NCBI RefSeq assembly: GCF_902506165.1
Contig: NZ_LR733817.1
Span: 6,261,262-6,325,261, forward strand
Reading direction: 5' to 3'
Length of the DNA stretch: 64,000 bases
DNA from: Bosea sp. 29B
GTDB taxonomy: Bacteria; Pseudomonadota; Alphaproteobacteria; Rhizobiales; Beijerinckiaceae
Within the stretch, counting starts at the first letter, position 1. The number at the start of each line of letters is the position of its first letter. Shown one piece after another: positions 527 through 62,814 of the stretch. The translations under genes were made by a program, and so were the position numbers. Under the pieces are notes generated by a model. The model worked only from the letters and a program-made list of their open reading frames with translations, had not been told where the DNA came from and made no database searches.

Positions 527-1447
527 ATGGCCGACAGCAAGACCCGCATCCTGTTCGCAACGATCCTGGCGCCCATACTCTGGGGTTCGACCTATGTCGT
601 CTTCACCCAGACGCTTCCCGTCGAGCATCCCCTGCTGGTCGGGGCGCTGCGCGCTCTGCCCGCCGGCATCCTCCTGATGCTGCTCGGTCCCGGCCTGCCG
701 CCGCGCGACAAGCTCCTGCCGCTCGCCATCATCGGCTTCGCCAATATCGGCCTGTTCTTCGGCATGCTATTTCTCAGCGCCTCGCGCCTGCCGGGCGGGC
801 TCGCCGCGACGCTCGGCTCGATGCAGCCGCTGCTCGTCGCCTTCCTCGCCTGGCCGTTGTTGTTGCGTAGGCCCGGTCTTGGCCAAGTGCTCGCCGCCCT
901 CGCCGGCACGATCGGCGTTGGCCTGCTGGTGATCGACGATACCGTGAAGCTCGACGCGATCGGCGTCATCGCCGCACTGATCGGCGCCGCCTCGATGGCG
1001 ACCGGCACCGTGCTGATCGAGCGCTGGGGCAAGGTCGGGACGCCGCTCGCGCTCGCCGCCTGGCAGCTCACATTGGGCGGGTTGCTGCTCCTGCCGGTCG
1101 CACTCCTGGTCGAGGGCCTGCCGCCCATGCCGACCCTGCTCAATCTCACCGGCCTGAGCTATCTCGTCGTGATCGGCACCGCTTTCGCCTACTGGCTCTG
1201 GGTCCGCGGCATCGCCGCGATCGGAACGGGCGTCGCCTTCTTGAGCCTGCTCAGCCCGCTGGTCGCGACCTTCCTCGGCGCCGCCCTGCTGGGCGAGTGG
1301 TTCCACGCCCAGCAATGGCTCGGCATCGCCATCATCTTCGGCTCGACCATCGCCGGAATCACGCTGTCACGGCGCAAGCCTACCGCGGCAGCTACGCCGA
1401 CTCAGGCCGCGACGCCGAACCGCTTGATCTCCCAGTGCAGCTCGTAG
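527..1447 (+). CDS. EamA/DMT-family transporter
   Basis: A 306-residue, very hydrophobic protein with about ten membrane segments arranged as two EamA halves, typical of drug/metabolite transporter superfamily exporters in the inner membrane. The first half has the family's N-terminal pattern ([17 protein letters not shown]) and the second half a similar repeat ending near TLSRRK. The ATG at 527 is chosen because GGGAGG lies a few bases upstream and the membrane domain begins right after it; the open frame extends further upstream but that stretch has no membrane character and covers the palindrome. Its 3' end overlaps the convergent murB by 46 nt. Substrate unknown; the MarR partner suggests efflux of a small toxic compound or metabolite. 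Confidence 0.88.
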
Positions 1448-2325
1448 CCTGAATTGTCCTTGACCCGGCGGCGGACCTCTTCGCCCAGCCCCTCGATATC
1501 GGCGGCGCTCGCGCCGCCGGTGTTGATCAGGAAGTTGCAGTGCATCTCGGAGACCTGCGCCCCGCCGATGCGCAGCCCGCGGCAACCGGCGGCATCGATC
1601 AGTTGCCAGGCTTTGCCGCCGTCCGGGTTCTTGAAGGTCGAGCCGCCGGTGCGCTCCTTGATCGGCTGCGCCGCTTCGCGTGCCGAGGTCACCCGCTCCA
1701 TCTCGGCGAGGATCTCGGCCTGGTCGCCCGGCCGGCCCTGGAACAGCGCCGAGGTGAAGACGATGTCGGTGGACGCCGTCGAGTTGCGATAGGTGAAGCC
1801 CATCTGCGCATGCGACAGGGTCACGATCTCGCCCTTGCGGGTGACGCCGCGCGCCTCGACCAGCACGTCGGTGGTCTCGCCGCCATGCGCGCCGGCGTTC
1901 ATGCGCAGAGCCCCACCGATGCAGCCGGGAATGCCGCGATAGAAGGCGAGCCCGTCGAGCGAGGCATCGGCTGCGGCGCGCGCCACCTTCACATCCGGGA
2001 CGGCGGTGCCGGCACGCAGCCGGTCGCCATCCTCGCGGGTGATCTCACCGAACGCCTTGCCCGCCAGGCGGATGACCACGCCGGGAATACCGCCATCGCG
2101 CACGATCAGGTTCGAGCCGAGCCCAACCACAGTGACCGGGATCTCCGCCGGCAGCTTGCCGAGCAGATAAGCGAGATCGGCCTCGTCGGCCGGGGTGAAC
2201 AGCACCTGCGCCGGCCCGCCGACACGAAACCAGGTCAGCCCCGCCATCTCCTGGTTGGCGAGCAGCCGCCCACGCAATTCGGGCGCAGCGGCGCGGATAT
2301 CGGGGGTGATGTCTTGGAAAGGCAT
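1402..2325 (-). CDS. murB: UDP-N-acetylenolpyruvoylglucosamine reductase MurB
   Basis: A cytoplasmic FAD enzyme that reduces UDP-GlcNAc-enolpyruvate to UDP-MurNAc with NADPH, the second committed step of peptidoglycan synthesis. The 307-residue protein shows the FAD-binding PCMH-type fold with WFRVGGPA near residue 30 and [15 protein letters not shown], then the C-terminal MurB domain with the substrate-loop region GSTFKNP and [10 protein letters not shown]. The ATG at 2325 is preferred over an in-frame extension into the upstream repeat (the extra 30 residues are repeat-encoded and not MurB-like). It is the last dcw gene here. It follows DUF559 by only 4 nt, so its ribosome-binding region lies inside that gene's end. 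Confidence 0.96.
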
Positions 2326-2329
2326 GAGC

Positions 2330-2758
2330 TTACCCGCGCGTCTCCTTCTCCCCTCGGGGGAGAAGGTGGCCCGGCGAAGCCGGGTCGGATGAGGGCCGTC
2401 CGGCGAGGCCGACATATTCGGCGATCTCGCGCAGGACGAATTCGAGGTTTCCTAGAACCCGCTCGTTCGAAAAGCGCAAGACCCGATAGCCCTCATGCCT
2501 GAGAAACGCGTCGCGACGCGCATCACGCTTCTGCGCTTCATCGGTCTCGTGAGGCTCGCCGTCGAGCTCGACAACAAGCCGATGCTCGAAACAGCAGAAA
2601 TCCGCGACAAAGGGACCGATCGCCATCTGGCGCTTGAACTTGAGACCGGCGAAGCGGCGGCCGCGGACCGCCTGCCAGAAGATGGTTTCAGCGCGCGTTG
2701 GCTCCTGTCGCTGACCGCGGGCGAAGGAGAGCGTGTCGGTCGTGTTCTTGCGCTCCAC
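2330..2758 (-). CDS. DUF559 endonuclease-like protein inserted in the dcw cluster
   Basis: A 142-residue protein of the DUF559 family, which shares the Vsr/PD-(D/E)XK endonuclease fold. Residues about 20-115 carry the family pattern: [37 protein letters not shown] and [12 protein letters not shown]. Candidate catalytic residues D53, E65, D66 and H70 are all present, so it looks intact. The start is GTG 2758. Residues from about 121 onward ([18 protein letters not shown]) are encoded by a palindromic repeat copy, and a second, inverted copy sits just upstream of the start. It separates murC from murB, which are normally adjacent. Family function is not established; a DNA-processing role in a mobile or repeat-related process is inference. 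Confidence 0.85.
2344..2397 (+). repeat. Palindromic repeat copy A (3' end of DUF559)
   Basis: Contains an outer hairpin, CTTCTCCCC/GGGGAGAAG at 2345-2365, then an inner hairpin CCCGGC-GAA-GCCGGG at 2370-2384, then CGGATGAGGGCCG. It is the inverted counterpart of copy B at 2762-2816: the first 27 bases of the core and the last 13 are identical, while the inner stem differs. It encodes the C-terminal tail of the DUF559 protein. Confidence 0.88.
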
Positions 2759-2761
2759 GAC

Positions 2762-2816
2762 CGGCCCTCATCCGTCAGCGCTTCGCGCTGCCACCTTCTC
2801 CCCCGAGGGGAGAAGG
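2762..2816 (-). repeat. Palindromic repeat copy B (between DUF559 and murC)
   Basis: Inverted copy of repeat A. The inner hairpin is CAGCGC-TTC-GCGCTG at 2776-2790 (plus strand) and the outer hairpin CCTTCTCC..GGAGAAGG at 2794-2816. It overlaps the 3' end of murC, supplying its last 13 or so residues and the stop codon. With copy A it brackets the DUF559 gene. Confidence 0.88.
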
Positions 2817-4214
2817 AAGAGAGGCAAGCTCACTCGGCAGGGCATACGCCCACTGTGTGATATTCCCAGCCCCCAAGCAGACCACGTAATCCCCCGGCCC
2901 GGCCAGCTCGGCGACCATGCCGGCGAGCTTGTCCGGGGATTCCAGCGGCAGCGTGTGACGATGGCCGCGCGCCTTGATCGCCGCCACCAGAGAATCGCGG
3001 TCGATGCCCGGGATAGGCTGCTCGCCGGCCGCGTAGACATCCGCGATGATCACTGAATCGGCATCGTTGAAGCAGGCGGCGAAGTCGGCGAACAGGCTCG
3101 ACAGGCGGCTGTAGCGATGCGGCTGCATCACCGCGATGACCTTGCCCTTGGTCGAGGCGCGCGCGGCCTTGAGCACGGCGGCGATCTCGACCGGGTGGTG
3201 GCCGTAGTCGTCGAAGATCAGCGCGCCGTTCCACTCGCCGGTCTTGGTGAAGCGGCGCTTGACCCCGCCAAAGCCGGCGAGCCCGGCCCGGATCTGCTCG
3301 ACCGGCACGCCCAGATCATAGGCGACGGCGATCGCGGCGGTGGCGTTGAGGGCATTGTGATGGCCCGGCATCGGCATGATGAGATCGCGCACCACCTCCT
3401 CGCGGCCGCGCTTGCGGTCGCGGATGAGCAACGTGAACTTCGACTGGCCGCCAGAGAGGTCGATGTCGAGCAGGCGGAAATCGGCCTGCGGGTTCTCGCC
3501 ATAGGTGATGACCCGGCGATCCTCGATCTGTCCGACCTGCTCCTGCACGGTCGGATGGTCGATGCACATCACCGCAAAACCATAGAAGGGCAGGTTCTCG
3601 ACGAAAGCGCGGAACGCCGCCTTGATCGCATCGAACGAGCCGAAATGGTCGAGATGCTCCGGGTCGATATTGGTGATGATCGCGACATCGGCCGGCAGCT
3701 TCAGGAAGGTGCCGTCGGATTCGTCGGCCTCGACCACCATCCAGTCGCTCTCGCCCATGCGGGCATTGGTGCCGTAGGCGTTGATGATGCCGCCATTGAT
3801 CACGGTCGGATCAAGCCCGCCCTTTTCGAGCAGGGTCGCGACCAGCGAGGTCGTCGTCGTCTTGCCGTGCGTACCGGCGATGGCGACGCAGGATTTCAGC
3901 CGCATCAGCTCGGCCAGCATCTCCGCGCGGCGCACCACCGGCAGGCGCTGCTCGCGCGCCGCCATCAGTTCGGGGTTGTCGCGCTTGATCGCGGTCGAGA
4001 CCACGACGACCTCGGCCTCGCCGATATTCTCGGCCTTGTGGCCGACGAAGGTCTTGATGCCCTTCTCGGCCAGGCGCTTGACGTTGGCGCCGTCGGAGGC
4101 ATCCGAACCCTGCACCTTGTAGCCGAGATTGTGCAGGACTTCGGCGATGCCGGACATGCCGATGCCGCCGATACCGACGAAATGGATGGAGCCGAGCTTC
4201 GGCGGCAGCTTCAT
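2775..4214 (-). CDS. murC: UDP-N-acetylmuramate--L-alanine ligase MurC
   Basis: A cytoplasmic ATP-dependent ligase that adds L-Ala to UDP-MurNAc. The 479-residue protein has the three Mur-ligase domains: an N-terminal Rossmann domain ([17 protein letters not shown] at about 11-27), a central ATPase domain with the P-loop [11 protein letters not shown] near residue 113 and [12 protein letters not shown], and a C-terminal domain starting around residue 320 with [11 protein letters not shown] and [10 protein letters not shown]. The ATG at 4214 begins 21 nt after murG ends. The last residues (about 467-479, [12 protein letters not shown]) are encoded by palindromic repeat copy B and are not MurC-derived, so the original C-terminus has been replaced. 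Confidence 0.97.
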
Positions 4215-62596: not shown

Positions 62597-62609
62597 GGCG
62601 GCGGCAGTC

Positions 62610-62814
62610 CCCACTCCCCTTGCGGGAGAGGGTTAGGGTGAGGGGTCGCGTGACCTTTCCGTCATGCTCGCCCTTGTGGCGAGCATCCACGTCTTGAACA
62701 CTACGCTGCCCGGAGGAAGACGTGGATGGTCGGGACAAGCCCGACCATGACGCGGAAAGGTCGCGCGCCCCCTCATCCGGCGCTGCGCGCCACCTTCTCC
62801 CGCAAGGGGAGAAG
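62610..62814. repeat. Composite palindromic repeat with inverted ends and nested hairpins
   Basis: The outer ends are inverted copies of the family seen around DUF559: CTCCCCTTGCGGGAG..GTGAGGGG at 62610-62645 and CCCTCATCC..CTTCTCCC..GGGGAGAAG at 62769-62814. Inside are further inverted pairs: CGCGTGACCTTTCCGTCATG (62647-62666) with its near-complement at 62746-62767, and CATCCACGTCTT (62684-62695) with AAGACGTGGATG (62717-62728). Small hairpins lie at 62667-62683 and 62729-62745. No gene is inside it. Confidence 0.85.

Follow-up and report, generated by a model that had tools for sequence, protein, structure and literature searches.

A DUF559 endonuclease-like gene between inverted palindromic repeats in Bosea: a probable analogue of REPtrons built on a different enzyme

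In the genus Bosea, genes of the DUF559 family commonly lie between inverted copies of short, dispersed palindromic repeats, and each clade of the protein goes with its own repeat sub-family. Genomes with the gene carry more copies of the matching repeat (kinship ignored), the sites of insertion are polymorphic among relatives, and the gene is under purifying selection. One such unit is found in the window, the whole stretch of 64,000 nucleotides of Bosea sp. 29B that was analysed, where 473 bp made up of repeat copy A, a DUF559 gene and copy B set murC and murB apart. This unit is probably an analogue of a REPtron, in which a Vsr/homing-type DUF559 endonuclease is carried between inverted copies of its cognate repeat and is proposed to spread them.

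The unit between murC and murB

The first-pass annotation had placed a DUF559 gene between murC and murB, bracketed by inverted hairpin repeats, and this reading is confirmed (Table 1). The inverted arms (2343-2407 and 2753-2817) are 65 nt long and 83% complementary, and 100 shuffles of the window never yielded palindromic cores like the pair at 2344-2366 and 2794-2816 (mean 0.00). Each copy has a palindromic core of 23 nt, followed by a second hairpin and by a tail that points inward; folded as single-stranded DNA, each forms at least two hairpins (z -3.3 and -4.1). The ends are as described earlier, with CTTCTCC facing outward and a GAGGG-type end facing inward, the inward tail being read as GGATGAGGG in both copies. 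The second hairpins are unlike in sequence between copies A and B, but pairing is kept in both. The GTG start of the DUF559 ORF lies a few bases to the gene side of the copy B tail, and copy A encodes most of the last ~20 residues of the protein, so that the C-terminal tail is indeed encoded by a repeat. The C-terminal tail of MurC (about 13 residues, window 2775-2820) is likewise coding sequence within copy B. As copy B codes for the end of MurC, the insertion altered the C-terminus of a cell-wall enzyme.

Table 1. Features of the murC-murB unit and of the doublet at 62.6 kb, in window positions.
Feature	Position	Strand	Remarks
murB	1402..2325	-	downstream flank of the insertion; start 2325 picked from the ORF list
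DUF559 ORF, 142 aa	2330..2758	-	domain part ~2396-2758
Repeat copy A	2344..2397	+	palindromic core (hairpin 1) 2344-2366; hairpin 2 ~2368-2386; inward tail GGATGAGGG 2387-2395
Repeat copy B, inverted	2762..2816	-	core 2816-2794; hairpin 2 within 2793-2774; inward tail GGATGAGGG 2773-2765
murC	2775..4214	-	C-terminal tail encoded by copy B
Left half of gene-less doublet, CGCAAGG-type sub-family	62609..62645	+	
CGTC-type inverted doublet nested in the 62.6-kb doublet	62660..62752	.	arms 62660-62695 and 62717-62752, 83%
Right half of gene-less CGCAAGG-type doublet	62768..62814	-	

DUF559 is a family of unknown function. The window ORF matches its profile (PF04480) with 118 bits, against a curated cut-off of 20.6. 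A Pfam search of the unit's gene gave DUF559 and a sub-threshold match to MTES_1575 only, with no Y1 HuH tyrosine transposase. The window protein is a sequence relative of PDB 3hrl (E 7e-15, 93 residues), an entry named 'Endonuclease-Like Protein'. At profile level, the C-terminal part of the nuclease core also resembles PDB 3r3p, 'Mobile intron protein' (E 6e-4), which belongs with the Vsr-like homing endonucleases of the family named EDxHD. E17, D46, E57, D59, H63 and D70 (first-row numbering) are invariant in 23 rows from the genus, including the window protein, and from this conservation the acidic and histidine residues of DUF559 are predicted to be catalytic. Median omega is 0.14 in the murC-murB clade, a rough value as dS is near saturation there (median 1.04), and 0.15-0.20 in four other clades. 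Membership of a defence system was considered and rejected, since PADLOC gives weak DpdF matches alone, over ~50 residues and in two of three proteins.

The genome of Bosea sp. 29B (G000), whose seven closest named orthologues all come from Bosea, has one DUF559 gene and 39 core palindromes, 26 of which form 13 inward-facing A1-type pairs. Twelve of these pairs are gene-less, with 95-119 bp between core starts, and the remaining one, of 450 bp, holds the DUF559 gene. The repeats of this genome are thus mostly inverted doublets, as in REPINs. A second unit at 62.6 kb had been described as a gene-less relative of the same layout. It is present and indeed gene-less; however, its cores (...CTCCCCTTGCGGGAGAGGG and CTTCTCCCGCAAGGGGAGAAG) are of a different sub-family, the CGCAAGG type. 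At its centre, this doublet (62609-62814) carries a CGTC-type inverted doublet, which starts with CGTC at 62660.

At the murC-murB junction, 64 of the 67 genomes of the genus were fetched, seven had no murB found beside murC, and 57 were resolved. The unit with its DUF559 gene is present in 16 of these, with an apparently broken frame in two (G006 and G063), and the gene is missing from 41, so that empty sites, by which the earlier proposal could be checked, do exist. By eye, the gene-less junctions divide into 13 clean ones (29-40 bp from MurC residue 460 to the murB start), ten with a single core of the A1 sub-family, intact or decayed, two in which such a core is accompanied by a doublet from a different sub-family, 11 that carry CGTC-type repeats (in one case with a half core as well), and five with no recognised repeat. 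Distances between DUF559 genes track the distances measured in the murC and murB DNA on either side (Mantel r 0.66 and 0.83, p 0.0005, 14 genomes). This correlation with both flanks indicates that the unit is old and mostly vertical, and gives no support to a recent insertion at this junction. The murC-murB unit is an old insertion that was later inherited and often lost.

DUF559 genes and their flanking repeats

DUF559 was found in 49 of 67 Bosea genomes; in the wider samples, it occurs in 77 of 240 genomes from the class and in 86 of 249 from the phylum. The 89 match rows of the genus correspond to 87 loci, two broken genes having given two rows each, and 86 of these could be scored for inverted repeats (score of at least 16 between 400-bp flanks; L075 was without a flank). 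For the class and the phylum, the best match per genome was taken from 30 of the 77 and 28 new of the 86 positive genomes. Flanking repeats, which the first-pass annotation had led us to look for in relatives, are present at 62 of 86 loci in the genus, 18 of 30 in the class and 17 of 28 in the phylum; the other 24, 12 and 11 loci lie below the threshold. When the windows were shifted by 1000 bp, and loci with less than 400 bp on a side dropped (82 of 87 genus and 29 of 30 class loci kept), inverted repeats were found in 0/168 cases in the genus, against 61/82 in place, and in 0/59 and 1/55 in the class and phylum. None of 400 random positions of the window between 4 and 59 kb had them. Chance or composition as the origin of the inverted repeats is therefore ruled out by shuffles, random positions and shifted windows. 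A direct-orientation control in the class (10/30 at a score of at least 16) carries no information, as palindromes match in both orientations. A palindrome of the type CTTCTCC/CCCTCTCC/CCCTCCC occurs on at least one side of 77 of the 86 genus loci, and on both sides of 51. ParE toxin genes of the same genomes have inverted repeats at 0/30 loci, which speaks against the idea that such repeats lie beside any small accessory gene; they also have the DUF559-type palindrome at 0/30 and a CGTC-type match on one side at 2/30. The association of DUF559 with flanking repeats thus holds generally, beyond the window.

No recognised repeat lies within 160 bp of ten of the 87 genus loci, six of which are one clade (L046, L052, L063, L065, L067 and L074; upstream of L046 no more than 133 bp are available). 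Further afield, six of 13 records pass, including two of Deinococcus and one of a cyanobacterium, in a set of 12 plasmid or megaplasmid records, picked by hand from 38 for spread, plus E. coli K-12. The Deinococcus loci (L348 and L354) have inverted repeats beside DUF559 outside Pseudomonadota, in an orientation that looks reversed, and the Pseudanabaena locus (L352) has inverted repeats of another sequence type. Sinorhizobium meliloti pSymB, also among the six, has a 102-point repeat beside an IS, which may be something else. In E. coli K-12, ycjD (L345) is a DUF559 gene without inverted flanking repeats, and has one CCCTCTGGGGAGAGGG palindrome on one side.

The repeat hairpin is formed by a C-rich arm, a loop and a G-rich arm, often followed by a second, co-varying hairpin. 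In 32 distinct segments gathered from the fetched loci, 21 retain a second stem of 5 bp or longer, with G-T pairs accepted, built from 11 different 5' arms, compared with a mean of 2.4 and a maximum of 7 in 200 shuffles. By eye, the inward tail (GTGAGGG/GGATGAGGG) is an imperfect repetition of the G-rich arm. The motif GG[AG]TG[AG]GG within 45 nt of the core is on the gene side in 29/39 cases and on the outer side in 1/39 in the class set, with corresponding figures of 14/34 and 2/34 in the phylum and 77/132 and 32/132 in the genus, where repeats often stand side by side. GTAG is absent from both window copies, and GGTGAGGG and similar tails are seen at other loci. CGTC is also absent from copies A and B, and so does not mark one end of the window DUF559 repeats. 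At six loci (L114, L120, L130, L131, L324 and L332), the loop of the core hairpin is apparently interrupted by other palindromes, as in a nested insertion into the loop.

At 10/15 class, 7/11 phylum and 9/34 genus loci that have a tail, the tail is no more than 14 nt away from an in-frame start codon (counted with no control set). The GTGAGGG/GGATGAGGG tail is a few bases before the DUF559 start codon at L230, L231, L238, L255 and L259. These positions are suggestive of a tail that could serve as the ribosome-binding site of DUF559.

Clade pairing, copy number and insertion sites

Five repeat sub-families are found nearest to DUF559 in the genus: A1 (CCTCGGG loop), TGTAA, CGGATG type, CGCAAGG type and A3 (CCCTCCC). 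Labels follow the nearest repeat on either side and were set after viewing the flanks; L042, whose two flanks carry differing sub-families, took the label of the closer one. In a tree of 80 DUF559 proteins, 72 of them labelled, there are four label changes, the minimum for five labels, whereas 200 shuffles gave at least 38 (seven loci, L095 and L097-L102, being fragments or broken genes, were left out of the tree, and the eight unlabelled rows were not counted). The murC-murB and CGCAAGG units are each at a single syntenic site, so those rows are not independent. As A1 genes occupy two sites and CGCAAGG genes one syntenic site, the pairing was recounted with one row per genomic site and label, leaving out L100. 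This gave 17 rows and again four changes, against at least six in 2000 shuffles. DUF559 clades and repeat sub-families therefore match. The TGTAA and CGGATG clades are found at several different sites, sometimes twice per genome.

Equal abundance of the repeats in genomes with and without the gene would have spoken against the earlier proposal, and it is not what is seen. A1 cores have a median of 24 copies in the 17 genomes that have an A1-type gene (all with at least one copy; gene frame broken in two) versus 2 in the 50 without (18 zero; p 2e-7, kinship ignored), and TGTAA cores have a median of 26.5 in 16 genomes with a TGTAA-type gene versus 5 in 51 without (p 9e-6, kinship ignored). One mismatch was allowed in counting, so that some A1 counts, among the rows listed, take in a CGCGGG-loop variant. 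However, the repeats do not disappear with the gene: the 18 genomes without any DUF559 gene have up to 20 A1 and up to 47 TGTAA cores, and the cross-pairings are mildly enriched as well (p 0.008 and 0.011). Part of the copy-number signal is thus explained by shared ancestry.

In one genome (G032, L088), an A1 unit with its gene lies between fadA and fadB (named by eye), and the joined flanks match uninterrupted in at least 48 of the 67 genomes. Ten genomes were fetched for this site: G032 is filled, one is empty and one unresolved, doublets are A3-like and gene-less in three, A1-like in one and of CGTC type in one, and two have inserts without a recognised repeat. At a second site, ten fetched genomes comprise one with a TGTAA unit and gene, one empty, three unresolved, one each with a CGCAAGG-type and a CGTC-type doublet, two with A1 doublets (G000 and G004), and one with an A1-like doublet and more DNA (G039). 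The mixed occupancy of both sites indicates that units and doublets are alternative occupants of the same sites, and among related species one intergenic site is found empty, with the gene or with a gene-less doublet. In the cases printed, units and doublets lie directly after or near a stop codon. No target-site duplication was clear by eye at the two filled sites with empty relatives. The empty sites seen at murC-murB and fad are plain junctions, not doublets of the same sub-family minus the gene. Across Bosea species, doublets of different repeat families (L318-L337) are seen at these two intergenic sites as if they were recurrent insertion sites.

GIY-YIG genes of Bosea (L133-L162) were meant as a negative control but gave a second positive, with a different class of repeat; like the ParE set, they comprise 30 fetched loci out of a larger number of matches. 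Inverted repeats were found at 22 of 30, a CGTC/GTCATnCC-type match on at least one side at 26 (both sides at 14), and a DUF559-type repeat at one. Conversely, a CGTC-type (GTCATnCC) match is present on a single side of 16 of the 86 genus DUF559 loci and on both sides of none of them, so the two repeat classes are not wholly dissociated. GIY-YIG clades track the repeat sub-type with five changes, against at least nine in 1000 shuffles (sites not collapsed), although these labels were defined after viewing the flanks and cover 23 of 30 rows, seven being unlabelled. In a phylum-wide set (L288-L317), inverted repeats were found at 7/30 GIY-YIG loci and a DUF559-type repeat at 0/30. In the passages drawn on here, a 2013 paper describes CGTC-tagged REPs as short palindromes that mostly form head-to-head dimers and apparently have no dedicated transposase (PMC3733652). 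The GIY-YIG-linked repeats resemble them in these features and may include some of those CGTC families. Whereas those passages report no associated transposase, the look-alike repeats of Bosea pair with GIY-YIG genes. Thus, GIY-YIG is a candidate enzyme for CGTC-tagged repeats.

Mode of spread and relation to known systems

In the reading that we consider probable, DUF559 would recognise the cognate hairpin and tail and would nick or cut there. Cutting would let gene-less inverted doublets, such as those of Bosea sp. 29B, spread in trans to intergenic sites, and the whole gene unit would move in cis occasionally or rarely. The single core in ten relatives at murC-murB fits deletion between two near-identical cores, which we infer to be the route by which it arose. 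The earlier interpretation is supported by the flanking repeats in relatives, the junctions that lack the gene and the unequal repeat numbers; that DUF559 proteins process or spread the repeats, through recognition, cleavage and movement, we infer.

The chief rival is that DUF559 is a homing-endonuclease-like passenger, which invades the doublets, safe and recurrent targets into which to copy its gene, without spreading the repeats. Such a passenger would agree with the homing-type relative 3r3p found by profile match, with the central position of the gene in an inward-facing pair, a structure more often seen gene-less (12 of the 13 A1-type pairs in Bosea sp. 29B), and with the alternation of units and doublets at one site. 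However, it has no need of the pairing of clades with sub-families or of a higher copy number with the gene, and the sites examined include no orthologous pair of the same sub-family differing by the gene alone, which makes it an unlikely account. It is quite improbable that the repeats merely serve the gene, as bidirectional terminators, insulation or a ribosome-binding site, with association and pairing reflecting vertical descent only. Although the strong hairpins, the start codons close to the tail, the near confinement of two clades to single sites and the vertical inheritance of the murC-murB unit would all suit this role, it does not lead one to expect tens of dispersed gene-less copies in several genomes, a pairing that holds with each site counted once, or an inverted, tail-inward symmetry on both sides. 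Least probable of all is spread by another enzyme, for example an unlinked RAYT/TnpA-REP, with DUF559 as a host nuclease selected to process or repair the hairpins. Purifying selection on DUF559 and the persistence of repeats in some genomes without it are compatible with this, but it does not account for each DUF559 clade being flanked by a repeat sub-family of its own.

In REPtrons, as the passages drawn on present them, REPs and REPINs tagged with GTAG go together with a tyrosine transposase, RAYT/TnpA-REP (PMC3116915, PMC3733652, PMC6006769), and REP types are specific to TnpA-REP subclasses (PMC6006769). As in REPtrons, the gene of the Bosea units lies between inverted copies of a palindromic repeat that is dispersed in the genome, the repeats are spread largely as gene-less inverted doublets, and each gene clade has a particular repeat type. 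The A1 and CGCAAGG clades further share one conserved site per genome and vertical inheritance, the latter shown for murC-murB. The doublets of Bosea sp. 29B together with its DUF559-bearing pair have the same arrangement as REPINs and their RAYT gene in the passages of PMC3116915. The layout of REP-associated transposase units with another enzyme, as first proposed, therefore stands, while the 62.6-kb doublet does not qualify as a gene-less copy of the same sub-family. The enzyme differs, being a Y1 HuH transposase in REPtrons and here a DUF559 nuclease with nuclease structure relatives, and so does the tag, which is GTAG in REPtrons and here GTGAGGG/GGATGAGGG. Also unlike REPtrons, the TGTAA and CGGATG clades are spread over multiple sites.

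Other systems resemble the units in part. MITEs are likewise short, gene-less inverted-repeat units beside a gene-bearing relative; they differ in that here no target-site duplication was established and the enzyme is not a known transposase. The likeness to Vsr-like homing endonucleases (PDB 3r3p) consists of the profile similarity in the C-terminal part of the nuclease core, but here there is no intron or intein, and copies of a dispersed repeat family stand on both sides of the gene. In Legionella pneumophila, the passages of PMC12308824 (2025) describe repeated recombination hotspots, both in intergenic regions beside GIY-YIG genes and in segments carrying a transposase and DUF559, and call GIY-YIG a homing endonuclease/mobile element; unlike in Bosea, these passages describe no cognate palindromic repeats or clade pairing. 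Among the matches listed in open-licence PMC, no paper linking DUF559 or GIY-YIG to cognate palindromic repeats was found. The searched terms are present yet unconnected in passages of PMC9465073, and a term search of PMC12306157 (2025) found neither 'nuclease' nor 'endonuclease'.

The chances are about even that at least three parallel systems of co-evolving enzyme and hairpin repeat exist: the known RAYT/GTAG system, and the new DUF559/GTGAGGG and GIY-YIG/CGTC systems. The palindromes beside DUF559 have no known driver in the literature searched, and the pairing of nuclease and repeat gives both a testable role. If the reading is true, DUF559 gains a function and CGTC repeats gain their missing enzyme. 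The RAYT/REP idea would then extend to unrelated enzymes, and restriction- or homing-type nucleases, not transposases alone, would drive the spread of short palindromic repeats.
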